Counted from the stretch's first letter, positions 6,307 to 26,394 are shown. The stretch is DNA of 33,513 nucleotides from Acidobacteriota bacterium (GCA_013813355.1 JACCRT010000039.1:1-33513); one strand, 5' to 3'. Notes: generated from the sequence alone by a model not told the origin. A program made the numbers and translations.

Positions 6307-6325
6307 CGCGCGTTCGACTACGGGA

Positions 6326-6547: not shown

Positions 6548-6674
6548 AAATCCTCTCCGCAAGAGGATACTATGGCGAACCGTGCGCGCACTTGCGCAGT
6601 GCCTGCCGCCCGACCCCCGCCGCCCGCCGCTGCGATCCCTCAGAGCCATCACCCGCGGCCGCGCACTCTCCGAC

Positions 6675-6687
6675 GGGACAGTGTCCC
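6675..6687. promoter_or_regulatory. Palindrome GGGACA-G-TGTCCC overlapping the predicted -35 of the OsmC-like gene
   Basis: Perfect 6-bp inverted arms with 1-nt spacer; a TACAAT -10-like hexamer lies at 6706-6711, so the palindrome covers the -35 position. Confidence 0.35.
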
Positions 6688-6729
6688 GGGTCGAGACTTC
6701 AGTACTACAATCAGTGGCGGGAGACCGCC

Positions 6730-7056: not shown

Positions 7057-7148
7057 CGGCGCGCACGCCGAGTACCTGGCGTCGATCGACGCGTGGCGCG
7101 ACGGATCGGTGTATGACGTCCCGGGCGAGGTCGTCCTTGCCAGCGGCG

Positions 7149-7871: not shown

Positions 7872-8137
7872 GATGTCTCCCTGCCAGCAGTCCTCATCCG
7901 CGGCCACCCGCCTGATCCCGGGGACTCACGGCCACTCGCCGTCTTGCGGGTAGCTACTCCGCATCATGTCCACCGTCGAGGTCCGACGTCAACCGCCGCA
8001 TCAGGTCCCATGGCTGAGGTTCTGGCTCGGCAAGCGGTGCAGGTGAGCGGGTACCTCGATTGCAACCGATGACGGAACGTTCGACGAGCGGATCTCCGCC
8101 GTCAGCATCAGCATTCGGAACGGAGAGGAGGAAACGT

Positions 8138-8953
8138 ATGAGGTGGACCCATTGTTTCGCGCCGGCGCTCGCGCTGGCTATCGCGCTGCCGGCCGCCACG
8201 GCCACGGCCCAGGTCACGCAGCAACAGACGCAGCAACAGCAGCAGACTCAGGATCCGCAGCGGCCTGACGCGCGGGTCGATCAGCAGCGGACCGGCCAGT
8301 ACGAAGTCGTCCGGGCTGACCGGATCATCGGCCAGACCATCCGGGATCGGAACGATCAGCGGCTGGGTCGTATCGACGATCTCGCCATCAACACCGAGGA
8401 CAAGAAGGTGGCCTACGCCGTGGTCACCCGCGGCGGGATGTGGGGGATCGGCGGCGAGCGCGTGGCCCTGGCATGGGACGAAGTCCGGCCTGATCACGAA
8501 GCGCGCGTGGTGAGACTCGACGAACAGCGTCTTCAGCAGGCCCGCCGTATCGAGACCGGCCAGACCTGGCCGGTCAACATCGGGGACGGGCCCGTCGGCA
8601 CGGCAGGCGCCGCGCCTGAACATCGCGTTCTGCCAATGAGCAACATCATCGGCATGGACGTGCACAACAAGCAGGGTGAGAGCCTCGGACGCATCGACGA
8701 CGTGGTGCTGAACCGCGATGGTTCGCTCAACTACGCCGTCATCGCGCACGGCGGCTTCCTCGGGATCGGCGACAACTACATCGCCGTGCCGTGGGATCGC
8801 CTGACGCTCGACGCACAGCGGCAGGGCGCCGTGATGGACGTCACGCGGGATCAGCTCGACCGTACGGAGCGGTTCGAGTACCGCGATGGCGCGTGGCCGA
8901 ACCGGGTCAACTGGCCGTTCGGCGGCGGTGACGCGGGCCGCGACCGCCGCTAA
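8138..8953 (+). CDS. Exported protein with two PRC-barrel domains
   Basis: Signal peptide MRWTHCFAPALALAIALPAATATAQ; Q-rich linker; two PRC-barrel units (RADRIIGQTIRDRNDQRLGRIDDLAINTEDKKVAYAVVTRGG.. and MSNIIGMDVHNKQGESLGRIDDVVLNRDGSLNYAVIAHGG..); GGAGAGGAGG upstream. Confidence 0.85.
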   Translation: MRWTHCFAPALALAIALPAATATAQVTQQQTQQQQQTQDPQRPDARVDQQRTGQYEVVRADRIIGQTIRDRNDQRLGRIDDLAINTEDKKVAYAVVTRGGMWGIGGERVALAWDEVRPDHEARVVRLDEQRLQQARRIETGQTWPVNIGDGPVGTAGAAPEHRVLPMSNIIGMDVHNKQGESLGRIDDVVLNRDGSLNYAVIAHGGFLGIGDNYIAVPWDRLTLDAQRQGAVMDVTRDQLDRTERFEYRDGAWPNRVNWPFGGGDAGRDRR

Positions 8954-9007
8954 GCCACGAGCACACGCGCACACGCACGCTCGCGGAAACGCGGGTGTCG
9001 ATTTTCA

Positions 9008-9039
9008 GGGGGTCGGCTCTCAGGAGCCGGCCCCCTTTT
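9008..9039 (+). terminator. Rho-independent terminator after the PRC-barrel gene
   Basis: GGGGGTCGGCTC-TCAG-GAGCCGGCCCCC-TTTT: 12-bp stem with one G-U pair, 4-nt loop, T tract. Confidence 0.8.
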
Positions 9040-10699
9040 CCTTCGTCCGCTTCCGCCCGCTTCGATTCTTCTTCCGCGTCTTCCGGCTCGCGTCGCCCCA
9101 GTGCGAAAGAAACCGCGTGATGAACGCGTGCTCCCCCGCAGAACCGACCGCCAGCGGGGCCAGCGCCATCGCGACTGTCAACGCGGTGTGATAGCCGCCC
9201 GACCGGGACACAGTGGCGCGCACGTAGGCGGGGTGGGCCTCGTTGATCCAGATCGTGCTGTCAACGAGGCGGCCGAGTTCGGAGTCCTCCGGCCGCGCCT
9301 CGAACTGCACGAGCAAGCCATACCGCGCGGGGCGGCGCCGACCGCTGACGGTCGCAAGTGTGCCGACGATGACACGCTCGTCGCCGCCATCACCACTCTC
9401 ACCGTCAGCGTCTGCTGGCGCCGATGGCTCGGACGGCACACTCTCACCCCCCGGCCCGGATGGCGGCGTGGGCATTTCGTCGCCGGGCGGGCCCGGCTCC
9501 CCCGGAGGATCCTCTCTCTGCGGCAGCGCGGCCGCCCTGTGGCCGTCTGCATCCGTGCCGGTCGACAGGTCCGCGAAGAGCGGTCCTGGCACCCGGTCCG
9601 AGCCACGGCCCGGCAGCGGCAGCCGGTTCTGCCCGCCGGCGCGCTGATCGACGAGAGATCGCAGCAGGGGAAAGTCGTCGGCGAGGTCCTCCAGCACACG
9701 CTCCAGGTCACGTTCGAGGCGAATCGTGCGAGGCCGCGCCTCATCGCGGGCATCGCCCCAGGCGTTCAACTGGCGGGAGACGACTTCCTGGATGGCCTTC
9801 CGGTAGGCCAGATAGGTGGCGCCACGCGGGCCCGTCCGGACGAAGTCATTCTTGCTGAGCGTCAGGCAGGCCGCGAGATCGGGAGCCTCGACCACCGCAC
9901 TGATGCGAAAGGGGGTCGCGGGAGTGAGCCCCAGCCAGTCCCACCCGCCCTTGATGACCTTGCCGAACGTGCTCACCGCGATCCCGTGCTGGTCGTCTGG
10001 AAGGGGCACCGTATGGCGTTCGAGCACTGCGATTGCCGACGGCAGGCGCTTGCGACCGAGCCTGATAGGGATGGTGACGCGCTCGCGTGAGGCAGTCGAC
10101 ACCGGTTTCAGCGGCAGCGCGTCCACCTCGAAGGCGATACCCTCCGGATAGTGCCTGCGGAGGAGTTCGTCGAACGCCGAATCGAGCAGCGGCGCGAAGT
10201 GGTGGCGGAGCGCCTCTTCCAGGTAGCCGGCGTCGAGCAGCGGCGACAGGGGATTGTTCAGGCGCAGGCGCACGGCGGTGCCGCGGCCGCCTGCCAGACC
10301 CGGCGGCGGCATCCACTTCCAGGGTGCCCGGTAGCGGCTGGCGAGGTGCCACGTGGTCGCCACGTGCGTCTTGCCGCGGCGGGTCTCGGTGACGACCTCG
10401 TCGGCGACGAGCAGGCCCAGCTTAATCCCCACCCCGGCAAAGCCGATGCCCTCGCCCCGCGATTTCGTGCTTGCCGCGACGTTATGGTAGCGGGCCAGAT
10501 CGCGCCGCTGCATCCCTCGCCCGTCGTCCACCACTGTCAGGGTGCCGTCCCCGGCGTTGGGCTGGAAGCGGATGCGGGTCGCGCCCGAATCGAGGGCGTT
10601 GGCCGTGATCTCGGTGAGGATCGTCTCTTCGAGTGCGCCCGTGTAAGCATCCCGGAGGTCTTCGAGGAGATGCTGGAGGTCAACGCGTGTTTCGCCCAC
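9020..10699 (-). CDS. GHKL-type (MutL/MORC/Hsp90-like) ATPase with uncharacterised C-terminal domain
   Basis: N-box EETILTEITANALDSGATRIRF, G1 VVDDGRGM, G2-like GIGFAGVGIKLGLL; Pro/Gly-rich linker; C-terminal STIWINEAHPAYVRATVSRSGGYHTALTVAMALAPLA; Lys/Arg-rich tail. Confidence 0.8.
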   Translation of the reverse strand: MGETRVDLQHLLEDLRDAYTGALEETILTEITANALDSGATRIRFQPNAGDGTLTVVDDGRGMQRRDLARYHNVAASTKSRGEGIGFAGVGIKLGLLVADEVVTETRRGKTHVATTWHLASRYRAPWKWMPPPGLAGGRGTAVRLRLNNPLSPLLDAGYLEEALRHHFAPLLDSAFDELLRRHYPEGIAFEVDALPLKPVSTASRERVTIPIRLGRKRLPSAIAVLERHTVPLPDDQHGIAVSTFGKVIKGGWDWLGLTPATPFRISAVVEAPDLAACLTLSKNDFVRTGPRGATYLAYRKAIQEVVSRQLNAWGDARDEARPRTIRLERDLERVLEDLADDFPLLRSLVDQRAGGQNRLPLPGRGSDRVPGPLFADLSTGTDADGHRAAALPQREDPPGEPGPPGDEMPTPPSGPGGESVPSEPSAPADADGESGDGGDERVIVGTLATVSGRRRPARYGLLVQFEARPEDSELGRLVDSTIWINEAHPAYVRATVSRSGGYHTALTVAMALAPLAVGSAGEHAFITRFLSHWGDASRKTRKKNRSGRKRTKEKGAGS

Positions 10700-10780: not shown

Positions 10781-11725
10781 TCACCGGGCGGCGAAGTACT
10801 CGCGGCGGGCGCGGACTTTCATCCCGCGCTCGGTCACGCGGACCTGCAGCTTGTGCATCTTGTTGTCGAGTGCAGGCGGTTCGAACCCGATCAGGTACTG
10901 GCGATGCAGTTCGTCGGCGACGCGCGCGAAGGTGCTGGCCAAATCCTCGGCGCGGTTGAGTTCGAAGTAGCCGCCGCCTGTTTCGTCGGCAATAGTGGCG
11001 AGGCCGGGATCCGGCCGCTCGGAGCGCATGCCACCGCCAAAGCCGCCGAGCCCCCCGCGCCCGGGCTGGCGGAGCGTGGTGCTCTGCAGGCCGATGGCGT
11101 ACACCATGACGTTCTCCTCGTGCGAGCGGCGCATGACGTCCATGATCGAGCGGTTGCGCAGCCGGAAGTTCATCGGGAAATCGCCACCATCACTGAAGAC
11201 GAGCACGACACGACGGCCCTCCTGGTCGCTCAGCGCGGTGATCGCGGCGTCCAGGGCGTTCCACAGCGGCGTCGGTCCCTGGTCCTGCAGCTCGTGCCGG
11301 ATGATGCGGATCAGCTCGTCCTGGTCATTTGTGAATCCCTCGGGATCGATCTGGATGCGCTCGGCAAAGCTGCCGATCCGCGCCTTGTCTTCCGGACGTA
11401 GACGCCGGACGAACGCCTCCGCCCCGGCTTCCAGCAGGCGGAAGTTCTGCCGCATGCTGCCGCTCCGATCGAGCATCATCACCACGGAGATCGGCTGGAT
11501 GTCGTTGGAAAAGACGGTGATCGGCTGCGGTTTCCCGTTGTCGCGGATCTGGAAATGGTCGCGTTCGAGATCTGGCACCAGCCGTCCCTGCCCGTCGCTC
11601 ACGGTGGCGTAGACCGCGACCGTATTGGCGCCGGTGCGAAACGGCTGCTGCTGAGCCGGTAGTGGTGTCACGAGCAAGGCGCCGGTGAGGGCGAGCGTCA
11701 GTAGTGAGAAAGTCCAAGGTTTCAT
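10781..11725 (-). CDS. Secreted VWA-domain protein (VWFA-related, acidobacterial type)
   Basis: Signal peptide MKPWTFSLLTLALTGALLVTPLPAQQ; MIDAS-like VVMMLDRSGSM; VLVFSDGGD; conserved DFxIxDNGKxQxI-type start. Start moved to internal ATG at 11723-11725. Confidence 0.88.
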   Translation of the reverse strand: MKPWTFSLLTLALTGALLVTPLPAQQQPFRTGANTVAVYATVSDGQGRLVPDLERDHFQIRDNGKPQPITVFSNDIQPISVVMMLDRSGSMRQNFRLLEAGAEAFVRRLRPEDKARIGSFAERIQIDPEGFTNDQDELIRIIRHELQDQGPTPLWNALDAAITALSDQEGRRVVLVFSDGGDFPMNFRLRNRSIMDVMRRSHEENVMVYAIGLQSTTLRQPGRGGLGGFGGGMRSERPDPGLATIADETGGGYFELNRAEDLASTFARVADELHRQYLIGFEPPALDNKMHKLQVRVTERGMKVRARREYFAAR

Positions 11726-11790
11726 CGGTCCGGTGATTCCCCGACAGGCTGGCCTCCCCATGATCGCACGTTCGCCGTCCTCACCGACCA

Positions 11791-11825
11791 CCTTCAGCCT
11801 TTAACCTTCAGCCTTCGGCCTTTCC
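11791..11825 (+). repeat. Heptanucleotide repeat, 5 units (CCTTNNN; minus strand CTGAAGG-type)
   Basis: CCTTCAG-CCTTTAA-CCTTCAG-CCTTCGG-CCTTTCC, strict 7-nt period; overlaps the 3' end of the 11808-12110 gene. Confidence 0.75.
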
Positions 11826-12110
11826 TTCGACGCTCTGGACCTTGTCGGCGAGCGTCTGGGGGCGGTCGATTCGTGTCGACAGCTTCAGCGACGTGCTGAC
11901 CCGCGGCGCGCCCATCTGGTGCACGGCCTCGTGGCATTGCCGAACCGCCGCCATCACGGCCTCCCACTCCCCTTCGACGTTGGTGCCAAACGCGTGGAGC
12001 TTCGGGTCCAGCCCCGCCGCGCGTAACACCCGCTCGCAGGCCGCAACATAGTCCGAAATCGACACGCCGACGCCGAGGGGGATCACTGAAATCTCTGCAA
12101 GGACCTTCAT
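11808..12110 (-). CDS. MTH1187/YkoF-like thiamine-binding family protein (UPF0045)
   Basis: MKVLAEISVIPLGVGVSISDYVAACERVLRAAGLDPKLHAFGTNVEGEWEAVMAAVRQCHEAVHQMGAPRVSTSLKLSTRID is diagnostic for this family. Confidence 0.9.
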   Translation of the reverse strand: MKVLAEISVIPLGVGVSISDYVAACERVLRAAGLDPKLHAFGTNVEGEWEAVMAAVRQCHEAVHQMGAPRVSTSLKLSTRIDRPQTLADKVQSVEGKAEG

Positions 12111-12152
12111 GGCTCATCCTTCCCGTTGATCAGGTTCATGGAGTTCAGCAAA

Positions 12153-14294
12153 TCAGGAACGCCGGACCCGGTCAAGTAACTCGGGCGTGCCAGCCAGGAC
12201 GAGGCGGTCGGCCGCGGCGAGCGGACGCTGGGGGTCGGGTGCGGCCATGGTGTGGTCGCCACGGGTCACGGCCACGACCGTGACGCCGAAGCGCTTGGGG
12301 AGCTGGAGGTCCGCGAGGCTGCGCCCCGCCCAGCCAGGCATGGCGCCAACGGCCAGCTCCTGCACGACGAAATCCTCCTGCTCATGCCCAGCGCCTGTCG
12401 GCTCTACGCGGCCGAGGTAATCTACCGCGCGATCGAGGCCAGCCGGCTCTCCTGAAAGGATCAACCGGTCCCCGGGGAACAACTGGAACGACGGGCCAGG
12501 ATTGAAGAAGCTGCGGCCGGCGCGACTTACCGCCAGGACGGTGACGCCGAACTCGTCGCGCACCGGGACTTCGGCAATGCGGCGCCCCGCCCACATCGAG
12601 CCCGGGCTGAGCCGCACCTCGCGCAACCCCGGGGTCGCCGTCGCAATCGCCGAGAGGCGGTCCATCGCCGAGGTGATCGCGTCGGCGGCCTGCTCGGCCG
12701 CGTCGGCGTACGGCCGCAACAGCACGTCCACACCCTTCAGCCGCAGCAGGTCGCCGTCATCGGCCGACCGCGCCGAGACCGCGACCTTTCCGTCGTACCC
12801 GCGCGTGCGCAGGTGGTGCAGCAGCACCTGGCTGGTATCGAGGTCCGGCGCCGTGCTCACCACCCACTTCACGTCGTCGAGCGGCAGGTGATCGAAGAGA
12901 TCCGCGTCGTTGGCGTCGCCGTACAGCACCGGCACCCCTTCCGCCCGCCAGTAAGCGAGGGCGGCCGGGTCGAAGTCGATGCCCATGACGCGCCGGCTGC
13001 GCAGCAGCAGGTGACGGACGATGCCGCCGCCGTAGCGGCCAAGCCCGAAGACGATGACGTCCGCGGACTCGTGGGCGGGCGCGCCGGTGCCCATCTCCCG
13101 GTACGGCGCACGCCGCTCGAACACGCCGAGCCAGGGCGCCAGCCACTCGTACAAGCGGGCTGAATAAATGATCATGTAGGTGGACAGGCCGATGGTGATG
13201 AGCCCCACCGTCGTGATCAAGCCCATCGTCTCGGCGGTGATGTGACCGACGCTCACGCCGAGCGCCCCCAGGATGAGCGAGAACTCGCTGATCTGTGCCA
13301 CCGTCAGGCCGGCGAGAAAGGACGTGCGCTTCCGGTAGCCCATCACGCCCATGATGATCATCACGATGATCGGATTGCCGACCAGGACAAAGAGCGAGAA
13401 GATGACCGCGCTGCCGAGCGTCATGCCGAGCAGCGACAGATCCAGGCGCGCGCCGAGCTCGATGAAGAAGAACAGGAGCAGGAAGTCGCGGACGGTCACG
13501 AGCCGGCTGCCGATCGTGTCGCGGTAAGGCGTCGGCGCGAGCGAGGCGCCGGCCAGGAAAGCGCCGACCTCGCGGCTGAACCCGAGCACCTCGCCTGCCG
13601 CCGCAAGGGCGATCGCCCACGCGATGGCCGACAGCACCAGCAGTTCGGGTGACCGCGCCAGCCTCGCCGTCAGCGCCGGCAACACCCAGACGGCAAGCGC
13701 CACAATCACCGCGACGAATGCGATCCCTCCCGCGAACACCACCGCCGCCTGCACCGCGAGGCTGCGATCGCCGGCCGGCTCGGCGCCCAACGCCGTGATG
13801 CCGATCATCGCGACGATGACGGCGATGTCCTGGACGATGAGGAAGCCGACCGCGATCCGGCCGTGCAGCGCATCGATCTCGCGCTTGTCAGACAGCAGCT
13901 TGACGATGATGATGGTGCTCGAAAACGTGAGCGCGACGGCGACATAGGTGGCCGTGAGCGGCGTCATGCCCAGCCCCAGCGCGATCAAAAAGCCGATGAT
14001 CGACGTAAAGGCGATCTGCCCTACGCCAGTCGCCAGCGCCACCGGGCCGAGCGTGCGCACCACCGTGAGATCGAGCTTGAGCCCGACGACGAAGAGCAGG
14101 AGCGAGATGCCAAAGCTGGCGAGCAGCTCGATTTCTTCGTGCTGCGTCACGATCCCGAGCCCGGCGGGGCCAACCAGGATGCCGACGCCGATGAACGACA
14201 CGATGAGCGGCTGGCGCAGGGCGCGGCCGATGAAGCCGACGATTGCAGCGATCAGAAGGATCGCCGCAATCTCGACGAAGGGACTCACAGTCAT
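12153..14294 (-). CDS. CPA2/KefB-type cation:proton antiporter with TrkA-N and two TrkA-C (RCK_C) domains
   Basis: ~12 TM N-terminal exchanger (GVGILVGPAGLG, LTFSSTIIIVKLLSDKREIDALHGRIAVGFLIVQDIAVIV), VIVFGLGRYGGGIVRHLLLRSRRVMGIDFDP, and two C-terminal RCK_C-like repeats (FGVTVLAVSRAG.., FGVTVVAVTRGD..). Confidence 0.93.
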   Translation of the reverse strand: MTVSPFVEIAAILLIAAIVGFIGRALRQPLIVSFIGVGILVGPAGLGIVTQHEEIELLASFGISLLLFVVGLKLDLTVVRTLGPVALATGVGQIAFTSIIGFLIALGLGMTPLTATYVAVALTFSSTIIIVKLLSDKREIDALHGRIAVGFLIVQDIAVIVAMIGITALGAEPAGDRSLAVQAAVVFAGGIAFVAVIVALAVWVLPALTARLARSPELLVLSAIAWAIALAAAGEVLGFSREVGAFLAGASLAPTPYRDTIGSRLVTVRDFLLLFFFIELGARLDLSLLGMTLGSAVIFSLFVLVGNPIIVMIIMGVMGYRKRTSFLAGLTVAQISEFSLILGALGVSVGHITAETMGLITTVGLITIGLSTYMIIYSARLYEWLAPWLGVFERRAPYREMGTGAPAHESADVIVFGLGRYGGGIVRHLLLRSRRVMGIDFDPAALAYWRAEGVPVLYGDANDADLFDHLPLDDVKWVVSTAPDLDTSQVLLHHLRTRGYDGKVAVSARSADDGDLLRLKGVDVLLRPYADAAEQAADAITSAMDRLSAIATATPGLREVRLSPGSMWAGRRIAEVPVRDEFGVTVLAVSRAGRSFFNPGPSFQLFPGDRLILSGEPAGLDRAVDYLGRVEPTGAGHEQEDFVVQELAVGAMPGWAGRSLADLQLPKRFGVTVVAVTRGDHTMAAPDPQRPLAAADRLVLAGTPELLDRVRRS

Positions 14295-14327
14295 GTTCAG
14301 GCGGCGGTGATGGCGGCAGCCGGATGG

Positions 14328-15089
14328 TCAGGCACGAAACGACACCAGCAGGACCGTCACGTTGTCGCGGCTGCCGGCGTCGAGGGCCGCGGTGAGCAGC
14401 CGGTCGGCGAGCGTGGGCACGTCTGCAGGCTGGCTGAGAAGAGCGGACATGGCGCTGCTGTCGAGCGGGCCGCAGACGCCATCCGAACAGAGGAGCAGTA
14501 GTTCGCCGTCCCGCAGCCTGCGTTCCTGCACATCCACGGCGGTGTCGGCGTTGGCGCCTATGACGTTGGTGAGCACATGCCGCAGCGGGTTGGCCGCGAC
14601 CATCTCGTCGGTGATATCGGGATGGTCGGCCCGGATGCGCGTCACCCAGGAGTCATCGACGGTCAGCTGCGTCAGCTCGCCGTCGAAATACGAGTACACG
14701 CGGCTGTCGCCCACGCCCGCGTAGCTCATCACGTCGTCCCGCACCAGGGCGGCGGCAATGGTGGTGCCCATCCCGGCGTAGTCCGGGTTGGTCTGGCTGG
14801 CGTTGAACACGTGCGTGTTCGCCAGCCTGATGGCCGTGCCGAGGCGATTGGCTTGCAGCGAGAGCGTGGGGTCGATGCCAAACGGCATCGTGATGTCGGC
14901 GTCGCGGCCGCTCCTGCTGATGAAGTCCTGGAGCGTGTCCACGGCGAGCTGGGAGGCGATCTCCCCGGCGTTGTGGCCGCCCATGCCGTCGGCCACAATG
15001 AAGATCCCGAGGTCGACGCTCCAGTAGAGCGCGTCCTCGTTGGCCTTTCGGACCCGGCCCTTGTCGGTGATTCCGTGCGCTATGAGCAT
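14328..15089 (-). CDS. PP2C-family Ser/Thr protein phosphatase
   Basis: GITDKGRVRKANEDALY, FIVADGMGGHNAGEIAS, GMGTTIAAALV, YAGVGDSRVYSY, LLLLCSDGVCG, GSRDNVTVLLVSF. Start moved to internal ATG 15087-15089. Confidence 0.93.
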   Translation of the reverse strand: MLIAHGITDKGRVRKANEDALYWSVDLGIFIVADGMGGHNAGEIASQLAVDTLQDFISRSGRDADITMPFGIDPTLSLQANRLGTAIRLANTHVFNASQTNPDYAGMGTTIAAALVRDDVMSYAGVGDSRVYSYFDGELTQLTVDDSWVTRIRADHPDITDEMVAANPLRHVLTNVIGANADTAVDVQERRLRDGELLLLCSDGVCGPLDSSAMSALLSQPADVPTLADRLLTAALDAGSRDNVTVLLVSFRA

Positions 15090-15267
15090 GCCGCCTGGTT
15101 TCTTGCCTCGCTGGTGAGCGCGTTGAGTTCTGGATCCGGCGGCGACCGGGTCCCCGGTTGACACGTGCTGGCGCCGAGTTCCAGTTCTGCCGGTCGAGGC
15201 CCGGATGATATCAACGCCTCCCGGGGCAATCAACCGGGCGGGCCCCAGCGACCGGCTGTGCGCGTGT

Positions 15268-15297
15268 TTGCCCGAGCCGCGCCGGCTGCACTAGAAT
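15268..15297 (+). promoter_or_regulatory. Candidate sigma70-type promoter for the CsgG-like gene
   Basis: TTGCCC - 18 bp - TAGAAT, 37 bp upstream of the ATG; AAGGAGG Shine-Dalgarno at ~15324-15330. Confidence 0.4.
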
Positions 15298-15334
15298 AGG
15301 CCGCCCCCGTCAGTTGGACCAGCAAGGAGGAACA

Positions 15335-16252
15335 ATGAAAAAACTCGCCCTGTGCCTCGGGCTTGCCGTGGCGCTGCCGCTGCTGGCGCCCGTCAACGCG
15401 TCCGCGCAGGCAAAGGTGCGGATTGCGATCTGGGACTTCGAGAACAATTCCCAGGAAAGCCGGTGGTTCGCCAGCCAGCTCGGCCCCGCCGTGCGCAATC
15501 ATATCGACACCGCCTTTTCGGAGCATCCGCAGCTCGCAAAGCACTTTTCGGTCGTCGAACGCGACAAGCTGGCCCTGGTGCTGAAGGAGCAGGGCCTCGC
15601 CACATCGGGTGCGGTCGACGCCAAGACGGCGGCGAGCGTCGGCAAGCTGCTCGGCGTCCGCTACATTCTCACCGGCGCCATCGACAGCTTCAGCCTCAAC
15701 AGCGCCAGGGCCTCTACCAGGATGCTCGGCGGCGTCGGCGGCAGCATGGTCGAAGCCGAAGCGGGCATCAGCATGCGCATCATCGATACGACCACCGCCG
15801 AGCGGCTCGTGGCCGTGTCTGCCGAAGGCGGGGTCAAGAAGGGCGGCGGCGCGTTCCGTGGCACCGCGATCAGCCGGGACGCCGAGTGGGGCATCGCCAG
15901 CGAGGCGATCGAAAAGGCCGCGCAGGACCTGGTCAAGAAGTTCGTCAACGGCAACTACGCGAGCCGCTTCGTGACCGAGGGCGTCAACGCGACGCTCGAA
16001 GGAAAGGTGATCCGGGTCGATGGCGACCGCGCCTGGATCAATCTCGGGACATCGGCCGGCCTGAAGGTCGGCGATCGGTTCCAGGTGCTGCGGATCGGCG
16101 ACGAGCTCATCGATCCCGACACCGGTGCGAAGCTCGGCGCCGACGAGGAACAGACCGGCACGGCCGAAGTGATCGATGCGCAGGAGAAGTTCTCGATCGT
16201 GCGCGTCACCGGCGCAGTGGACGCGAAGTCGCTGCTGCGCAAGCAGCCGTAG
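15335..16252 (+). CDS. Secreted CsgG/HfaB-family protein
   Basis: Signal peptide MKKLALCLGLAVALPLLAPVNASA; VRIAIWDFENNS, VVERDKLALVLKEQGLATSGAVDAKTAASVGKLLGVRYILTGAIDSF, then a C-terminal GKVIRVDGDRAWINLGTSAGLKVGDRFQVLR beta domain. Confidence 0.85.
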   Translation: MKKLALCLGLAVALPLLAPVNASAQAKVRIAIWDFENNSQESRWFASQLGPAVRNHIDTAFSEHPQLAKHFSVVERDKLALVLKEQGLATSGAVDAKTAASVGKLLGVRYILTGAIDSFSLNSARASTRMLGGVGGSMVEAEAGISMRIIDTTTAERLVAVSAEGGVKKGGGAFRGTAISRDAEWGIASEAIEKAAQDLVKKFVNGNYASRFVTEGVNATLEGKVIRVDGDRAWINLGTSAGLKVGDRFQVLRIGDELIDPDTGAKLGADEEQTGTAEVIDAQEKFSIVRVTGAVDAKSLLRKQP

Positions 16253-16329
16253 TTTCGGGCGGCCCGCGCCTACGGCCCGCAGATGAGACGAACTCAGAGT
16301 GTCGAACCCGGAGGCACCCGTCCCGCGTT

Positions 16330-16364
16330 CCTCATTCTGAGTTCTGAGTTCTGAATTCTGATTT
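16330..16364 (+). repeat. Heptanucleotide repeat (CTGAGTT-type), 4-5 units, with an upstream inverted copy at 16291-16297
   Basis: CCTCATT-CTGAGTT-CTGAGTT-CTGAATT-CTGATTT, 7-nt period; AACTCAG at 16291-16297 is the reverse complement. Confidence 0.75.
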
Positions 16365-16368
16365 TCAC

Positions 16369-17412
16369 TTGCTTCCCCTACAGGTCCGCTTCATCAGCGG
16401 CTCGCGGCGCGGGCAGAAAACTGCCTTTCACCACTCCCCGGTTCGCGCCGGCCGGAGCCGCGACAGCGACCTCCTGGTTCCCGAACTGACCGAACCCCTG
16501 TCGAGCGGCCGCCATGCGGAGTTCGTCTTCGAGGACGGCCACTGGTGGGTCGTCGATTGCGCATCCACGAACGGCACTCGGCTCAACGGCCTGCCGGTGA
16601 GCCGGGCACGGCTGCAGGACCGCGACCGCCTCTCGTTTCGCGATGTCGATCTGGAGGTCCGTGTTGGCGCCGCCCGCCATCTCGGCCGCGCCGCGCTCGG
16701 CGCAGCGCTCATCGTGTTGCTCGCGATCATGGGCTGGGTTGCCTGGGAGGCCACGCGCCGCCCCCTCGACGCCATCGCGTCCGCGGCGCGCCGCTCCGTG
16801 TACCTGCTGACGATCCACGACGCCGAGCGGCGGACGGCCGTCGGGACCGCGTTCGCCGTGGACGCCTCCGGGCAGCTCGTGACCAACGCGCACGTCGCGG
16901 CGCCGCTGGCCGCGCTGCTGGCCACTGCGCAGTCCCCCATCCCGTATGCCGTCGGCGCCGACGATCCCGAGCGACCGCGACGCATCACGGGCATCAGGCT
17001 TCATCCCGGCTGGAGGGAGGGCTCCATCTCGAACGATGTGGCGCTGGTCACCGTCGAGCAGGGGCCCGCGCTCTCGCCGCTCCAACTGGCGCGCAGCGAC
17101 CAGCTTGCAGCCCTCGAGCCCGGAGTGACGGTCGCGATCTTCGGCTTCCCGGCGGCCTTCACCTATCCGGACCGCCCGCTGGGAAGTCTCGCGGTCAACG
17201 TCCTCAGGGAGGTCCGGGGCTCACGCTATCTGGTGGTCGGTGTGGCGGTGACCGCGGGATCGAGCGGCAGCCCCGTCTTCGCGATTGACGGCACCGTGGT
17301 CGGGATGATCGTGGGAAGCGGCCGGGCAGGTGCCGGCAACGTCGGCACCGAGGTGAACACCAGCCCCGGTGTCGCGCTCAGCGCGGCCGTGGTCCGCGAA
17401 GTGCTGCAGTAG
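16369..17412 (+). CDS. FHA domain - TM helix - trypsin-like (S1/HtrA-type) serine protease
   Basis: FHA: AGRSRDSDLLV..LSSGRHAEFVFEDGHWWVVDCASTNGTRLNG; TM ALGAALIVLLAIMGWVAW; protease triad LVTNAHVAAP, SNDVALV, TAGSSGSPVFAIDG. Start codon (TTG) uncertain. Confidence 0.85.
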   Translation: MLPLQVRFISGSRRGQKTAFHHSPVRAGRSRDSDLLVPELTEPLSSGRHAEFVFEDGHWWVVDCASTNGTRLNGLPVSRARLQDRDRLSFRDVDLEVRVGAARHLGRAALGAALIVLLAIMGWVAWEATRRPLDAIASAARRSVYLLTIHDAERRTAVGTAFAVDASGQLVTNAHVAAPLAALLATAQSPIPYAVGADDPERPRRITGIRLHPGWREGSISNDVALVTVEQGPALSPLQLARSDQLAALEPGVTVAIFGFPAAFTYPDRPLGSLAVNVLREVRGSRYLVVGVAVTAGSSGSPVFAIDGTVVGMIVGSGRAGAGNVGTEVNTSPGVALSAAVVREVLQ

Positions 17413-17499
17413 CCCTCGTCCCCTGGAAGCGTGATGAGTTGCACGAGTCCCGGGGCGCGGCGCCCGGATCGCAAGGCGCGACGACCGCGCAGAGTGGGC

Positions 17500-19542
17500 C
17501 TAGCCTCCGCCCTTCACCATGAACGCCTTGACCCGCGCCAGCGTGTCGATCGCCACAACCCGCGCATTCTCGTTCGCGCGCTCCGCGCCGAGGCGCTGAT
17601 CGAAACTGAACGTTCGCGCGGGGGCCATCGGGATCACGCGGTCCAGTTTCGGTGCGTCCCCCATCACCTCGATCGAATACGTCCGCACGGCCATCACTGT
17701 GCCGAACTGCTGCTCGCGCCGCTCGTCGATGGCCGTGGCCGTCGCGACAAGGATGATGTCGGCGCGATCCGACGAGCGGGCGATGCCCAGGCGCTCGCGT
17801 TCGAGCGCCTGGTCGAAGGCAGCTCGCACGGCGCCGCACACCTCGCCGGCGCCGCGGCATTCCACGAACACGGACGGACTGGCCGGCAGCGCTTGCACGC
17901 CTTGCGTGGACGGCGCGGGCGGTGACGCGGCACCTACCGGGGGTGGCGCGGCCCCCGTGAGAGGTGACCCCGTAGTTGCGGGAGGCACCCCACTCGCCGG
18001 AGGTGGCGCAGCCTGAGTAGATGGGGCTGCCGCACCGGCGTTCCCGGTTCCGCTGGATGCCGCGGATCCGCCCGGCGCACGCTGCGGCGGCGTGGTCGCG
18101 CTGCCACCGCCACCAGGCGCGCCGCTGGCCGAGGCGGACGCCGCCGCCGTCTCACCGGGAGCAATTACCTGGTCTGCTGGCGGACCTGCTGCGGACGTTG
18201 ATGCTCCTTCGGCCCGATCAATCGGCGGCAATGCTGTTGCCAATGACGCGTCCGGCGGGTGCGACCCTGTGTCCGTCGTCGCCTGCGGCGTCCCGCCGCC
18301 CGCCCGCTCGGTGAAAAACCAGAGCGCCCCGCCCAGGCCCGCGATAAGGGCGATGATGGCGGCGATCGAGCCGAGTGCGCCAAGCGAGCTCCCGGGTTTC
18401 GGCGTGAAGCCGGCCTCTGGTGTGACGGGCGGGGCTGGCACCGTCGGGCGGGTTCCCCGCAGGCCAACATCCGGCGCGGCGAGCGCCTGCTCCATCCCGG
18501 CCTGCGGCGTGGGCATGGTCAGGTCCGGGTCATCAAGCGCCCCTCGGAGGGCGCCCACGGCAAGTGATGGCGACGCGCCGAGCGGTCTCGCGGGTTCCCT
18601 GCCGGCGCCCGCTTCCAGCGCCGCGGCAAGTTCCTCCGCGGTCTGGTAGCGGTTGGCGGGATCCTTCTCGAGACACTTGAGCGCGACCGCCTCCAGGAAT
18701 GGCGGGATGCCGATGTCGGGTCGCCGCCGGGACGGCGGCGCCGGCGTTTCGGTCATGTGCTTGACCAGGATCGCCGGCGTGGACGGATCGGTGAACGGCA
18801 CCTCGCCGACCAGCATCTCGTAGAGCATCACGCCGAGCGAGTAGAGGTCGCTCCGCCCGTCCACGTCCTTCCCCATCGTCTGCTCAGGCGACATGTACTG
18901 GGGCGTGCCGAGTGCGTAGCCGGGCGCGGTAAGCTCGGTCTGTACCTCGTCGAACGTCTTCGCGATCCCGAAGTCGAGGAGCTTGGTTATCTCGCGCCCC
19001 TCGCTGTCACGCGTCAGCATGACGTTCTGCGGCTTGAGGTCTCGATGGATGATGTGGTGCCTGTGCGCAAGGGCGAGGGCGCTGGCGACCTGCCGCACGA
19101 TTGACACGATGCGCGGCGGGTCGATGCGGCCCTGGCGCCGGATCTCGTCTTTGAGGCTCCGGCCATCGACGAGTTCCATCGCGATGTACAGGGTGCCGTC
19201 GTCGGTCTGACCGAGGTCGTAGACCGCCACGATCCCCGGGTGGTTCAAGCTGGTGGCCGCGCGTGCTTCGCGCTGGAAGCGCCGGACCACGTCGTCGGAG
19301 CTGACGAGCTCAGCCTTAATCAGCTTGACGGCCACCGGCTTGTTCAGCATGACGTGCGTGGCACGGAAGACGGCACCCATGCCGCCGCTGCTGAGATGGC
19401 TTTCGAGGCGATACTTGCCCTGCAGCACCGCGCCCACGAAGCGTTCTTCAGTCGGGCGGTGGCCCTCGAGAACCGTGCCGTCCTTCGGGCAGAGCCGTAC
19501 GTTGGGAGGATAGGACGTTCCGCAGTTGGGGCAGGCGATCAT
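17500..19542 (-). CDS. Ser/Thr protein kinase with N-terminal zinc ribbon, TM helix, low-complexity linker and CsgG/FlgO-like C-terminal domain
   Basis: MIACPNCGTSYPPNVRLCPKDGTVLEG zinc ribbon; SSGGMGAVFRATH, VAVKLI, HHIIHRDLKPQNVML, KLLDFGIAKTF; TM LGSIAAIIALIAGLGGALWFF; A/P/G/S/T linker; C-terminal RADIILVATATAIDERRE.. domain. Confidence 0.92.
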   Translation of the reverse strand: MIACPNCGTSYPPNVRLCPKDGTVLEGHRPTEERFVGAVLQGKYRLESHLSSGGMGAVFRATHVMLNKPVAVKLIKAELVSSDDVVRRFQREARAATSLNHPGIVAVYDLGQTDDGTLYIAMELVDGRSLKDEIRRQGRIDPPRIVSIVRQVASALALAHRHHIIHRDLKPQNVMLTRDSEGREITKLLDFGIAKTFDEVQTELTAPGYALGTPQYMSPEQTMGKDVDGRSDLYSLGVMLYEMLVGEVPFTDPSTPAILVKHMTETPAPPSRRRPDIGIPPFLEAVALKCLEKDPANRYQTAEELAAALEAGAGREPARPLGASPSLAVGALRGALDDPDLTMPTPQAGMEQALAAPDVGLRGTRPTVPAPPVTPEAGFTPKPGSSLGALGSIAAIIALIAGLGGALWFFTERAGGGTPQATTDTGSHPPDASLATALPPIDRAEGASTSAAGPPADQVIAPGETAAASASASGAPGGGGSATTPPQRAPGGSAASSGTGNAGAAAPSTQAAPPPASGVPPATTGSPLTGAAPPPVGAASPPAPSTQGVQALPASPSVFVECRGAGEVCGAVRAAFDQALERERLGIARSSDRADIILVATATAIDERREQQFGTVMAVRTYSIEVMGDAPKLDRVIPMAPARTFSFDQRLGAERANENARVVAIDTLARVKAFMVKGGG

Positions 19543-19909: not shown

Positions 19910-20647
19910 GTGACGATCCTGTTCTGTTTCGCCCACCCTGACGACGAAAGCTTTTCAGGGGCTGGAACCGCCATGCGGTGCGCGGCCGCGGGGGCGAAGA
20001 CCGTCCTCGTCACGGCAACCCTCGGCGAACGCGGGAAGCGGGGAGACCCGCCCGTCTGCGAGGAGGCGGACCTGCCCGCGGTGCGCGAACACGAGTTGCG
20101 GAACGCGGCGGCCGTCATCGGGTTCGACGAACTCCACCTGCTGGGATACCGGGATCGTGAGCTGGCCGACGCGCCGCCGGAGGCCATGCGGCGGGTGCTG
20201 GTGAGCCACCTTCGGCGGCTGCGGCCCGCGGTGGTCGTCACGTTCGATCCGAATGGCTTCAACGCGCACCCCGACCATGTGGCCATCAGTCGCTTCTGCA
20301 GCGAGGCGATTGCCGCGGCAGCCGATCCCCGATGGCACCCGGACGCCGGCGCGCCGCACCAGGTTCGGAGGCTCTTGTGGACCCCGCCCGTCGCTCCGTG
20401 GGACGCCGTGGCCCTAGACCTAGACCTGGCCGCGCAACCGGGCGCGGACTTCGTCATTGATGTGTCGGCGTTCCGGAAGCGCCGGATCGCTGCGCTCCGG
20501 GCACACCGGACGCAGCACCTGTCGGTCGATCGCTATTTCTTCGATCGGCCAGAGCTCGACCGCATTGTGGACGTGGAGATCTGGCGACAGGCATGGGGGC
20601 CGGCCCTGGCCACGCGGCCGAGCCGCGACGTGTTCGACGGCCTCTGA
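19910..20647 (+). CDS. PIG-L/LmbE-family deacetylase
   Basis: MTILFCFAHPDDESFSGAGT (AHPDDE metal-binding motif), VLVTATLGERG, LGYRDREL, FDPNGFNAHPDHVAIS. Confidence 0.92.
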   Translation: MTILFCFAHPDDESFSGAGTAMRCAAAGAKTVLVTATLGERGKRGDPPVCEEADLPAVREHELRNAAAVIGFDELHLLGYRDRELADAPPEAMRRVLVSHLRRLRPAVVVTFDPNGFNAHPDHVAISRFCSEAIAAAADPRWHPDAGAPHQVRRLLWTPPVAPWDAVALDLDLAAQPGADFVIDVSAFRKRRIAALRAHRTQHLSVDRYFFDRPELDRIVDVEIWRQAWGPALATRPSRDVFDGL

Positions 20648-20733
20648 GCAACAGCTCAAGAGTCCTGCTACAATTATGCGCACCCCGCAGCAGCCGCTGC
20701 CAGTTGTGCACCTGGCGCCGCCGTGTCAACCGC

Positions 20734-23604
20734 ATGGCCCCGACCCTGATTTCGCATTACCGCCTGCTCGACCAGCTTGGCGAAGGTGGCATGGGCGTGG
20801 TGTATCGCGCCGAAGACGTGCGCCTCGGCCGCGAAGTCGCCATCAAGCTGCTGCGCACCAGCGAGGTCCCGTCGGCGGAATGGCTCGCCCGCTTCGAACG
20901 GGAGGCTCGCCTTGCCTCGTCGCTGCAGCACCCGCACATCTGCACCATCCACGAGCTGGGCGAGCACGAGGGGCAGCCGTTTCTCGCCATGGAGCGGCTC
21001 GAGGGCCGCACCCTCCGGCAGGTGATCGACGACCCGATGCCAGCCCAGCGGGTGATTGGGCTGGCACGGCAGGCGGCCGACGCGCTCGACGCGGCACACC
21101 GCCGCGGGATTATTCACCGCGACATCAAGCCAGCCAACCTGTTCGTCAGCTATGGCGACCATCTGAAGGTCCTCGATTTCGGCCTCGCCAAGCTTGCGTC
21201 GGCCGGAGACGTTCACGGCGAGCGCGCGCCGTCGAGCCCGACCCTTCCCGCACCGGCCGGGCTCGACCTCACGCGCGCCGGCGATCGCGTCGGCACGACC
21301 GCCTACATGTCTCCGGAGCAGGCGCTTGGGCAGCCGCTCGACGCGCGGACGGACCTGTTCTCGCTCGGCAGCGTGATCTACGAGATGGCGACCGGCCGAC
21401 GGGCCTTCGGGGGCGACGACATCGCGCTCATCGTCACGAAGATCATCAACGGGATACTCGTCCCGCCCTCCACGGTCAATGCTGCCATCCCGGCGCAACT
21501 CGAGGCGATCGTCCTGCGACTGCTCGCGGTGGACCCTGCGAACCGGTACCAGACGGCCGCCGAACTGATAATCGATCTTTCCGCGGCGGCCGAATCCCTC
21601 GAGCCACGGGAGGAAGCTGCCGCGCTCTCACAGCCCCGTCCCATCAAGCGAGCTCGCCTGCAGGCCGTTGTGCCGCTCGTACTGGGCGCGCTGGTGCTGG
21701 CGGGGGTGGCGAGGTGGACGCTGGCACCCCGCGGCGCGGCATTGACGGATCGCGACAGCCTGCTCGTGGCGGCGTTCGAGAACACGACGGGCGATCCCAT
21801 GTTCGATGACGCGCTCATCCATGGCCTCAAGGTGCAGCTCGGCCAGTCACCCTTTCTCGATATCGTTCCCGACGCGCGCGTCCGCGAGACGCTGCGGCTG
21901 ATGGGCCGTCCAGACGACGAGGCCCTGACGGCGTCGACGGTGCGCGAGGTCTGCGAGCGGATGGGCGTGCGTGCGATGCTCGAAGGCTCGATCGCACCGC
22001 TCGGTGCCAACTACGTGCTCACGTTGAACGCCACCGAGTGCCAGACCGGCGAACCTCTGGCGCGGGCACAGGGCGAAGCCACGAGCGATGCACGCGTGCT
22101 GGCGGTCCTCGGCTCGATCTCGTCGTCCATCCGTCAGACGCTTGGTGAGTCACTGCCCACGCTGGAGCGGTTCGATGTCCCGATCGAGCAGGCCACGACG
22201 CCGTCGCTGGCAGCGCTGAAGGCGTACACGCTGGGCCTCGAGGAACGCCGACGGGGCCGCGAGCTCGAATCGGTCGCATTTTTCAACCAGGCGACCGAGC
22301 TCGACCCCCACTTCGCCGCCGCCTACGCAACGTTGTCGACGGTGTACGGCAGCCTCGGCGAATGGCGTCGAAGCGAAGAGTTCGCCCGCAAGGCGTACGA
22401 CCTCCGGGACCGCGTCAGCGAACGCGAGCGGCTGTTCATCACCTACCAGTTCCACGACCGGGTGACCGGGGACCAGGACAAGGCCGCTGCCACGCTCGAA
22501 CTGTGGCGAACCCAGTACCTGCGTGAGTCGCGGCCGTCCAACGCCCTGGCGGTGATTCACAACCGTGTCGGCCGCTACGAGCAGGCGGAGGCCGAGGCCC
22601 GCGAGGCGCTGCGGCGAACGCCCGGGCATCCGTTCCCCCTGTCGAACCTCGCCTTGACCTATCGCGCGCTCGGGCGCTATGACGACGCGCGCCGGGTGGC
22701 GGAGGAGGCGGTTGCGCTCGGCGTGGAAACGTCCCCGACGCGCCGGTTGCTGTATCAGCTCGGGATGCTGACCGGCGACGGATCGGCGGACGCGCACGTC
22801 ACCTGGGCGAAGGACCGGCCGCGCGAGTTCGACCTCGTCTCGGCGCAGGCGGAGGTAGCGGCGTTCGACGGCCGGATGCAGGAGGCCGGCGAACTCTACC
22901 AGCGTGCGGCGGACATGGCGCTGGCACGCCGGCTGCGCGGCACCGCCTCCGGGTACGCGGCACGGGTCGCCTGGACGGAGGTCCTCTATCGTCCGGCGCC
23001 AGAGGCTGCCGCGCGCGTCCGCCGCGTCGTGGCGCTCATCGAGGGCGGGCGCGAGGGGCCCGGCTCCGTGCCGCGCTTCCGCGGGGCGGCGGCCTACGCG
23101 CTGGCCGGCATGACGACCGAAGCGCAGGCTATTGTCGCGGAGGCCGAGCAGCGATACCCGGAGTCCACGCTGGTCCGTGACGTGCTGGCCCCCTCGACCA
23201 GGGCTGCGCTGGCGCTGCGGCAGGGCCGTGCCCAGGCCGCGCTCGACGCCCTGGAGGCAACCAGGCGCACCGAAACCGGCACGATGGCCGGCCTGGTCCC
23301 CGTGTATTTGCGCGCCGAAGCGATGCTGATGGCGGGGTCCGCCGCACCGGCCGCGCGGGAGTACCAGAGGATCCTGGAGCATCGCGGGGTCGATCCCTTT
23401 ACGCCGCTCATCCCGCTCGCGCATCTCGGCATCGCGCGCGCCAGGGCGCTGGCAGGCGACGCCGCCGGCAGCCGTCAGGCGTACGAGGCGCTCTTCGAGC
23501 TCTGGCGAGACGCGGATGCCGACCTGGCCCCGCTGACGGCCGCACGGGCGGAGTACGCCCGCCTCAGCACGCTCGGCCCGGTGCCGGAGCATTCGTCCCG
23601 GTAA
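20734..23604 (+). CDS. Transmembrane Ser/Thr protein kinase with FlgO/TolB-N-like and TPR sensor region (catalytically intact)
   Basis: LGEGGMGVVYRAEDVRLGREVAIKLL, GIIHRDIKPANLFV, KVLDFGLAKL, TTAYMSPEQ; TM VVPLVLGALVLAGVARW; VRAMLEGSIAPLG domain; multiple TPRs. ATG at 20734. Confidence 0.93.
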   Translation: MAPTLISHYRLLDQLGEGGMGVVYRAEDVRLGREVAIKLLRTSEVPSAEWLARFEREARLASSLQHPHICTIHELGEHEGQPFLAMERLEGRTLRQVIDDPMPAQRVIGLARQAADALDAAHRRGIIHRDIKPANLFVSYGDHLKVLDFGLAKLASAGDVHGERAPSSPTLPAPAGLDLTRAGDRVGTTAYMSPEQALGQPLDARTDLFSLGSVIYEMATGRRAFGGDDIALIVTKIINGILVPPSTVNAAIPAQLEAIVLRLLAVDPANRYQTAAELIIDLSAAAESLEPREEAAALSQPRPIKRARLQAVVPLVLGALVLAGVARWTLAPRGAALTDRDSLLVAAFENTTGDPMFDDALIHGLKVQLGQSPFLDIVPDARVRETLRLMGRPDDEALTASTVREVCERMGVRAMLEGSIAPLGANYVLTLNATECQTGEPLARAQGEATSDARVLAVLGSISSSIRQTLGESLPTLERFDVPIEQATTPSLAALKAYTLGLEERRRGRELESVAFFNQATELDPHFAAAYATLSTVYGSLGEWRRSEEFARKAYDLRDRVSERERLFITYQFHDRVTGDQDKAAATLELWRTQYLRESRPSNALAVIHNRVGRYEQAEAEAREALRRTPGHPFPLSNLALTYRALGRYDDARRVAEEAVALGVETSPTRRLLYQLGMLTGDGSADAHVTWAKDRPREFDLVSAQAEVAAFDGRMQEAGELYQRAADMALARRLRGTASGYAARVAWTEVLYRPAPEAAARVRRVVALIEGGREGPGSVPRFRGAAAYALAGMTTEAQAIVAEAEQRYPESTLVRDVLAPSTRAALALRQGRAQAALDALEATRRTETGTMAGLVPVYLRAEAMLMAGSAAPAAREYQRILEHRGVDPFTPLIPLAHLGIARARALAGDAAGSRQAYEALFELWRDADADLAPLTAARAEYARLSTLGPVPEHSSR

Positions 23605-23607
23605 TCC

Positions 23608-26394
23608 GTGCCGTCCCAGCGCATCTCGCATTACGAACTGCTCGACCGCATCGGCCGCGACGGGCCGACCGAGATCTACCGCGCCCGCGACCTGCGCCTC
23701 GAACGCGAGGTCGCCGTGAAGATCCTGCGCAGCGAAGTGCGCGACCTTCCAGGCGCCGTCGCGCGCTTCAGTCGAGAGGCCCGCATCGCGTCGCTCGTCA
23801 CGCACCCGCACGTCTGCGCCGTGCACGACTTCGGCGACGAGAACGGCCGGGCCTTCCTGGTCTGCGAGCTGCTCGAGGGCCGCGCGCTCGACGAGCTGAT
23901 GGCCGGCGCGCCGCTTCGGCCCGACCGGCTCATCGACATCGCGATCCAGCTGGCCGATGCGCTCGTCGCCGCGCACCGCCGTGGTGTCGTGCACGGCGGC
24001 GTGAAGCCGTCGAACGTGTTCGTCACGACCGACGGGCACGTCAAGCTCCTCGAACTCGGCGCCGTCGCGGCGGCCAGGCCGGATCCCCGTCCCGCCGACA
24101 GCCCCTCGGCCGACACCTCCAGCCATGTGGGGGACGCGCAGGTGGATGCGGTCGAGTACTTCCACCCGTACCTGTCGCCGGAACAGGTCGCCGGGCGCCC
24201 ACCCGACGAGCGCAGCGATATCTTTGCCACCGGCGCGCTGCTCTACGAGATGGCCACGGGCAGGCCTCCGTTCGAGGGACCAACACTCCCTGAGCTCGTG
24301 CAGGCGATCGCCGGCCGCGATCCACAGCCGCCGCGCACGCTGAATCCGAGCTTGCCGGGAGCGCTCGAGCCGATCATCATGCGGGCGCTTGCCCGGGCCC
24401 CGGCGGCCCGCTACCAGGCCGCCGCCGACCTGTTCGAGGATCTCCGCCGCGTCCGGCGGGCGATCGAGACGCCAGGCCCGGGACCGACGAGCAGCCGGCG
24501 CCGAGCGCTTCCGCTGACCGCCGCGGCCATTGTCGTCGGCCTTGCGGCCGTCGTGGCGATTGTCGCGCTGCCCTGGCGGGGGAGCCGGGCAGACTCCGGC
24601 TTGGCCCTGCGCAGCAGCGTGCTGGTCGGTCACCTCTACAACGGTACGGCCGACCCCGACTTCGATGGAACGTTGCGCGAAGCGGTGACGGTCTATCTCG
24701 AGCAGTCTCCGCACCTGGAGCTCGTCTCGGACGCGCGCATCCGCGCGCGGCTGCGCATGATGGGCCTCGACGCGACCAGCCGCATGACCCACGGGGTCGC
24801 CTTCGAAGTCTGCCAGCGCCTCGGCATCCAGGCCATGATCGAGGGCAGCGTGTCGGCGGTCGGCCGTTCGACCGTCATCGCGCTCGTCGCCACCGACTGC
24901 ACGAGCGGCGAACCGATCGCGCGGGAACAGGCCGAGGTGGAACGGAAGGAAGACGTGCTCGGGGCGCTCGGCACGATCACGGCCTCGGTGCGGGCCGCGC
25001 TCGGCGAATCGGGTGTCTCGCTGGCCAGTCACAACGTGCCAATCGAGGATGCGACGACCCCGTCGTTCGACGCGCTGAAGGCCTACACCGAGGGGGCATC
25101 CCGGCGGGCGGCGGGCGCCGAACTCGAAGCCATTCCGTTCTTGAAGCGAGCCATCGCCATCGATCCTCAGTTCGCACTCGCGTACACGACCCTGTCGAGC
25201 CTCTATGGCGGGCTCGGCGAAACGGGACGGAGCGAGGAACTGGCGCGCCTCGCCTACGAACACCGCGAGCGTGTCAGCGAGCGCGAGCGGCTCTTCATCG
25301 CGTACCAGTACCACGACCGCGTGTCCGGGGACCAGTTGAAGGCCCGGGAAGCGCTGGAGGTCTGGAAACGCACGTACCCGCACGACTATCGCCCCGCGAA
25401 CGCCCTCGCGGTTCTGCTGAACCGGCTCGGGCAGTATGACGCGGCCGCCGGCGAGGCGGAGGAAGCCCGCCGCCGAAACCCGGACCACGCGTTCCCGTAC
25501 TCGAACCTCGCCTATGCGCACCGCGGCGCGGGCCGCTATGGAGAGGCGCGTGCCGTGGCGGAACGAGCGCTCCAGGACAACCTCGAGACGCTGCCGATGC
25601 GCCGGCTCCTGTACCAAGTGGCGGAAATTGAAGGGGACGAGCCGGCGGCGCGCCGGCAGATCGACTGGGCCCGTGGCCGCGGGCGTGAATTCGACTTCAC
25701 CGGTGCTCGGGCACAGGTGGCTGCGTTTCGGGGACGGGTCGACGAAGCGCGCGCGCTCTACCGAACCGCGATCGCCGGGGCCAGGGCGGAAGGTTTCGGC
25801 CAGGTCGCCGACGGATACGGGGCGCAGGCCGCACTGATGGAGGCGCTCTATGGCTTCAGCCGGGAGGCCCTCGAGATTGCGAGGCCGATTGCCCGTGGCT
25901 CGACCGCCCCCGAAGCCCAGCTCCGCGCCGCGACGGCCATGGCGCTCGCAGGCGCCGCAGGCGAGGCCGAAGGGGTGCTCAGGGGCCTGCGGACCCTCCG
26001 GCCGGAAGATACGCTCCTGCAGGCGGCCTATCTCGCCCCCGCGGAGGCCGCGGTGCAGCTCGCCGCCGGCAGAACCGGCCCGGCGCTCGAACACCTGCGC
26101 CGCGCTTCGCCTTACGAGTACGGGATAGTCGCCGCGCTCGTGCCCGGCTACCTCCGGGCCGAGGCCCGGCTGCGGGCCGGTGCTCTCGACGAGGCGGCTC
26201 GCGAGTTCGCCGCCGTGCTCGACCACCGCGGCGCTGACCCGTTCTCGCCCGTAATCCCGGTTTCCCGGCTCGGCCTGGCGCGCGCACTGGCGCGGAGCGG
26301 CGACCGTACCCGCAGCACCGAATCGCTCGACGCACTCCGCGCCGAGTGGAAGGACGCCGATCCGGTCATGCGCCGCCTCCTCGACGCGCGGTGA
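23608..26394 (+). CDS. Paralogous TM kinase-fold/TPR receptor; predicted pseudokinase
   Basis: Colinear with the preceding protein but with IGRDGPTEIYRA (glycine loop lost), VVHGGVKPSNVFV (HRD->HGG), LLELGAVAAA (DFG->ELG); VAVKIL Lys and SREARIA Glu kept. GTG start 3 nt after the upstream stop. Confidence 0.9.
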   Translation: MPSQRISHYELLDRIGRDGPTEIYRARDLRLEREVAVKILRSEVRDLPGAVARFSREARIASLVTHPHVCAVHDFGDENGRAFLVCELLEGRALDELMAGAPLRPDRLIDIAIQLADALVAAHRRGVVHGGVKPSNVFVTTDGHVKLLELGAVAAARPDPRPADSPSADTSSHVGDAQVDAVEYFHPYLSPEQVAGRPPDERSDIFATGALLYEMATGRPPFEGPTLPELVQAIAGRDPQPPRTLNPSLPGALEPIIMRALARAPAARYQAAADLFEDLRRVRRAIETPGPGPTSSRRRALPLTAAAIVVGLAAVVAIVALPWRGSRADSGLALRSSVLVGHLYNGTADPDFDGTLREAVTVYLEQSPHLELVSDARIRARLRMMGLDATSRMTHGVAFEVCQRLGIQAMIEGSVSAVGRSTVIALVATDCTSGEPIAREQAEVERKEDVLGALGTITASVRAALGESGVSLASHNVPIEDATTPSFDALKAYTEGASRRAAGAELEAIPFLKRAIAIDPQFALAYTTLSSLYGGLGETGRSEELARLAYEHRERVSERERLFIAYQYHDRVSGDQLKAREALEVWKRTYPHDYRPANALAVLLNRLGQYDAAAGEAEEARRRNPDHAFPYSNLAYAHRGAGRYGEARAVAERALQDNLETLPMRRLLYQVAEIEGDEPAARRQIDWARGRGREFDFTGARAQVAAFRGRVDEARALYRTAIAGARAEGFGQVADGYGAQAALMEALYGFSREALEIARPIARGSTAPEAQLRAATAMALAGAAGEAEGVLRGLRTLRPEDTLLQAAYLAPAEAAVQLAAGRTGPALEHLRRASPYEYGIVAALVPGYLRAEARLRAGALDEAAREFAAVLDHRGADPFSPVIPVSRLGLARALARSGDRTRSTESLDALRAEWKDADPVMRRLLDAR

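Follow-up and report, generated by a model that had tools for sequence, protein, structure and literature searches.

A central question raised by this locus is whether four neighbouring genes of an acidobacterial genome constitute one signalling circuit. The window, meaning here the whole stretch of 33,513 nt that was analysed (Acidobacteriota bacterium, GCA_013813355.1 JACCRT010000039.1:1-33513), carries at positions 14328-19542 genes for a PP2C phosphatase, a secreted CsgG/FlgT-like protein, a protein in which an FHA domain is joined through a transmembrane (TM) helix to a trypsin-like protease, and a transmembrane Ser/Thr kinase (STK) (Table 1). An earlier note on this DNA had read these as eraser, partner or substrate, phospho-reader and writer of a single circuit. 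The four genes and their domains are present where they had been placed, with minor boundary corrections only. The circuit as one unit fails, whereas a smaller unit inside it, formed by the kinase and CsgG-like genes, does hold across genomes.

The PP2C and CsgG-like genes are divergent, and the FHA-protease and STK genes convergent. With the PP2C and STK genes on the minus strand, opposite to the CsgG-like and FHA-protease genes, the four do not form one operon. Each of the FHA and kinase domains precedes the only TM helix of a protein that has no signal peptide, and both are thus predicted to be cytoplasmic. Hydropathy places the two together on one side of the membrane, and the opposite-side topology that had been named as fatal to the circuit was not found. 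The protease domain and the C-terminal ectodomain (CTD) of the kinase are predicted to be periplasmic. The genome containing the window consists of 1.22 Mb and is 57% complete, so that absence of a gene from it weighs little.

Table 1. Locations of the genes and domains discussed. Positions are those of the window unless another locus is named.
Feature	Location	Strand	Remarks
PP2C phosphatase	14328-15089	-	ATG start; the program's mechanical ORF extends to 15233
Secreted CsgG/FlgT-like protein	15335-16252	+	305 aa; member of the conserved core pair
FHA-TM-trypsin-like protease	16369-17412	+	347 aa; TTG start; lineage-specific, between the pair
FHA domain	16444-16638	+	aa 26-90; carries the motif residues GR, S-x-R-H and N-G
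FHA-protease TM helix	16690-16746	+	aa 108-126; by hydropathy, sole TM outside folded domains
Trypsin-like peptidase domain	16843-17307	+	aa 159-313; H175, D223, S299
Transmembrane Ser/Thr kinase (STK)	17500-19542	-	680 aa; member of the conserved core pair
STK CTD	17503-17886	-	aa 553-680, about 125 aa; predicted extracytoplasmic; beta-alpha-beta-beta-beta-alpha, predicted FlgT/LptE/CsgG-like fold
STK TM helix	18322-18378	-	aa 389-407; by hydropathy, sole TM outside folded domains
STK protein kinase domain	18634-19413	-	Pkinase 5e-49; HRDLKP, DFG and GTPQYM motifs present
TIR-TM-linker-CTD protein	L092 (G027) 3660-5057		Convergent with CsgG-like gene
CTD-kinase, then FHA, STAS and FHA-GAF-SpoIIE genes	L079 (G063) 4052-9574		Same strand, small gaps
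FHA-TM-trypsin proteins, other acidobacterial families	L145 6509-7765; L147 6216-7514

The kinase begins with a short ribbon-like motif, CxxC...CxxD, followed by the kinase domain, the TM helix, a long low-complexity linker rich in Pro, Ala and Ser, and the CTD. Zinc-ribbon models score under the Pfam cut-off. With the PknB/PrkC-type kinases (Stk1/PASTA model NF033483) it shares a PknB-like cytoplasmic kinase, a single TM helix and an extracytoplasmic C-terminal domain; the model gives 339 bits, under its cut-off of 450, and the kinase part alone matches. It differs from the PASTA type in that a domain search of the ectodomain finds no PASTA repeats, the ectodomain is LptE/FlgT/CsgG-like and without a Pfam family, and a gene for a secreted candidate partner lies adjacent.

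Four kinases are encoded within the 33 kb. Apart from the STK of the pair, there are two adjacent, similar kinases at 20593-23604 and 23608-26394 (plus strand), of which the first has TPR repeats according to Pfam, and, at 517-3177 (minus strand), a kinase that ends in a WD40-like (PD40) propeller. The post-kinase region of the 20593-23604 kinase ('LLVAAFENTTGDP...') matches no Pfam family and by eye is TolB/FlgO-type-like.

The CTD has no family in Pfam that describes it and no sequence match among PDB sequences, and its profile does not match that of the CsgG-like neighbour (hhalign probability 0.2%); no convincing sequence kinship to any of the three was found. The AlphaFold2 model of the domain is confident (pLDDT 90.8), and a Foldseek search places the FlgT/LPHT ring (3e-6), LptE, GNA1162 and CsgG at the top of 38 matches at E <= 0.001, with moderate query-normalised TM-scores of about 0.3-0.6. 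The proposal that the C-terminus of the kinase is CsgG/FlgO-like in fold is therefore supported by the predicted structure, not as detectable sequence homology to the neighbouring gene product. Invariant positions in the CTD alignment are Cys10, Cys17, FG, RTY and FD. Cys562 and Cys569 of the window STK are conserved, and a Cys pair seven apart follows the TM helix in every protein examined, an arrangement that would fit an oxidised periplasmic domain. The protein of a single genome, G027, has a TIR domain (TIR_2, 1.6e-13) in the kinase's place on the same TM-linker-CTD, with 35% identity over that part of the kinase.

Conservation of the kinase and CsgG-like genes as a pair was followed in 162 genomes of the order, in a phylum sample of 396 genomes and by searching named genomes with an alignment of the CTD. 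The pair is found in convergent orientation in six genomes: the window, G013 (L093), G018 (L095), G027 (L092) and those with loci L096 and L097. The two genes are directly adjacent in four of these (G013, G027, L096 and L097), and in the window and G018 the FHA-protease gene alone intervenes. The CTD is rare, being present in 8/162 genomes of the order and 4/396 of the phylum sample. Strong CTD matches (E < 1e-18) occur in six genomes of the order, four of which carry the pair, and with a domain this rare chance adjacency is implausible. The scan of named genomes yielded seven Acidobacteria loci, among which L096 and L097 carry the pair. Their flanking genes, by eye trmFO-, topA-, dprA- or xerC-like, are alike in these two and unlike the flanks in the order; elsewhere the flanks differ in each background. 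The L096 and L097 genomes are not close relatives, as identity is 57-59% between the L096 TopA and that of several members of the order and class to which the window belongs.

The gene-neighbourhood comparison proposed in the earlier note thus has a divided outcome: the kinase/CsgG-like pair recurs in six genomes, but besides the window the FHA-protease accompanies it only in G018 and the PP2C in none. The idea that the CsgG-like protein is a partner of the kinase is supported by the conservation of the pair. No description of the pair was found in the literature searched, mainly open-access texts. Two genomes, G063 and G064, have a CTD-kinase without a CsgG-like neighbour of the clade described below; the run of genes behind the G063 kinase resembles a partner-switching arrangement. 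A role in anti-phage defence was also considered and set aside, as what PADLOC matched were kinase, protease and TIR domains of a generic kind, which did not count as evidence.

The closest relatives of the window's CsgG-like protein in an order-wide search are those of G046, G018, G027 and G013. In a maximum-likelihood tree of 51 CsgG-like proteins, comprising seven clade members and 44 other Acidobacteriota relatives, the six paired proteins and that of G046 form one clade with support of 100/100 and a stem of 0.99. Clade members score >530 bits as against <=239 for other CsgG-like relatives. No CTD was found in the G046 genome, which is 86% complete, nor in the 231 bp between its CsgG-like gene and the contig end; pairing therefore stands, at best knowledge, at six of seven clade members.

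The FHA-protease has FHA (3e-13) and Trypsin_2 (2e-14) domains. The complete H-D-S triad that had been attributed to it is intact by motif and is kept in the G018 homologue (41-43% identity), as are the FHA motif residues. This homologue is the only full-length relative detected in the 162 genomes of the order, and a pattern scan of genome contigs yielded no close relatives. Proteins with an FHA-TM-trypsin architecture are found in other acidobacterial families, at L145 and L147 with one predicted TM helix between the domains and at L146 by sequence. An FHA-FHA-Trypsin protein of Bacteroides thetaiotaomicron, NP_811686.1, was listed in 2008 (PMC2605481). All of these have an N-terminal FHA domain and a C-terminal trypsin-like protease, as does the window protein, but the L145, L146 and L147 genes differ in lying among genes unrelated to the kinase/CsgG-like pair. 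The neighbours of the L145 and L147 genes are by eye of glycosyltransferase/heptose type and not kinases. The architecture is thus a recurrent one, placed beside the pair in two known genomes. Two further candidates, FHA proteins of 438 aa from G368 and G438 (L148, L149), were rejected, as by eye they are FHA-kinases. Participation of the FHA-protease in a circuit is accordingly weakly supported, by its identical place in G018, and is countered by the occurrence of the architecture elsewhere without the pair.

The PP2C matches PP2C_2 (5e-15) and the Stp1/IreP PP2C model (2e-61; 207 bits, under the model cut-off of 230). It lies beside the pair only in the window genome, 33 bp upstream of a co-oriented gene for a Kef-type Na/H-exchanger/TrkA antiporter (12153-14294). 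In G046, G140 and G064 a PP2C adjoins a different kinase. The role of eraser assigned to it is not borne out, since its closest homologues in relatives have other neighbours, in several cases a different kinase, and it probably falls outside the conserved unit. The minus-strand run at 10781-15089 comprises the PP2C, the Kef-type antiporter, a thiamine-binding-like protein and a secreted VWA protein, with gaps of 33, 42 and 16 bp, and is possibly one transcription unit.

The nature of the secreted protein bears on how the pair is to be explained. It has a signal peptide, a CsgG domain (aa 22-203; PF03783, 6e-20, 71.9 bits against a cut-off of 20.8) and an FlgT_C-like region (aa 230-293) whose match is weak (2e-5, 25.3 bits under a cut-off of 27; 18.2 bits in L096). 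The Pfam match, together with Foldseek matches to CsgG, could suggest an outer-membrane secretion pore of curli type to which the signalling genes are incidental. This appears highly improbable: a lipobox Cys is present in 0/7 clade members, and neither CsgF nor curlin repeats were detected in the seven genomes searched, of which that of the window is 57% complete, although an E. coli control was detected. In addition, the model of the protein (pLDDT 62.7, moderate) matches FlgT (3e-16) better than CsgG (8e-8). FlgT forms the H ring of Vibrio (PMC7693769); it aligns with the CsgG-like protein over about 290 alignment columns and is among the top structural matches of the kinase CTD too, with sequence identity to FlgT and CsgG no higher than about 14% in the structural alignments. 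An obvious flagellar FlgT is not indicated either. FlgI is present in G018 but was not found in G013 (97% complete), G027, G046 or the incomplete window genome, which speaks against a general flagellar role. The protein thus differs from CsgG/LpoB/PelC/GNA1162-type proteins and from FlgT in its signal peptide without lipobox, its lack of curli partners and the missing FlgI of several carriers. With curli pore and flagellar ring both unsupported, it may be a soluble periplasmic protein capable of oligomerising.

Another explanation, possible though doubtful, is that the pair is merely a co-inherited or co-transferred block in which the kinase responds to a ligand of its own and the CsgG-like protein performs an independent task in the envelope. 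The pair is known from only six genomes, two CTD-kinases occur without it and one CsgG-like protein of the clade is apparently unpaired; its convergent orientation also means that the two genes are not co-transcribed. Yet the pair persists while the flanking genes change between backgrounds, and hitchhiking is difficult to square with an adjacency that survives divergence of the CTD down to about 35% identity and the exchange of kinase for TIR. The full circuit, in which the kinase writes, the PP2C erases and the FHA domain reads phosphorylation to gate periplasmic proteolysis of the CsgG-like protein, is unlikely. All of its parts are present with intact catalytic motifs, the FHA domain is predicted to share a side of the membrane with the kinase, and G018 retains the order CsgG-like > FHA-protease > < STK. 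Against this, the PP2C adjoins the pair in the window only, where it abuts an antiporter gene, and its relatives in G013, G018 and G027 are on contigs other than those of the pair; the FHA-protease is missing from between the pair in 4/6 genomes and has counterparts elsewhere in the phylum that occur without the pair.

The reading preferred here, for which the chances are judged about even, is that the kinase ectodomain and the secreted CsgG/FlgT-like protein make up a two-gene envelope-sensing pair with exchangeable cytoplasmic outputs. The secreted protein and the like-folded ectodomain probably contact each other, and the state of the former, whether oligomerised or bound to an envelope ligand, would be relayed over the inner membrane to the kinase. 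The output could be exchanged, as the TIR protein of the single genome G027 suggests. Beside the CsgG-like gene, the window lineage and G018 may have gained an FHA-protease anchored in the membrane. Its FHA domain might bind either the kinase in phosphorylated form or a phosphorylated substrate, and this binding could bring the periplasmic protease close to the sensor, by recruitment or clustering. Such phosphorylation-gated periplasmic proteolysis is plausible but unproven as a lineage-specific branch. A more elaborate scheme, quite unlikely at present, is a FlgT-like split signalling assembly in which the kinase or TIR ectodomain docks onto a ring of the secreted protein and FHA-read phosphorylation switches proteolysis there.

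Apart from the PASTA type, only a minority of transmembrane Ser/Thr kinases in bacteria have a known ligand. The occurrence of a specific kinase ectodomain and a secreted protein encoded next door offers a direct, testable candidate for a sensor and its ligand. The exchange of TIR for kinase on one ectodomain suggests that the envelope-sensing module may be portable.
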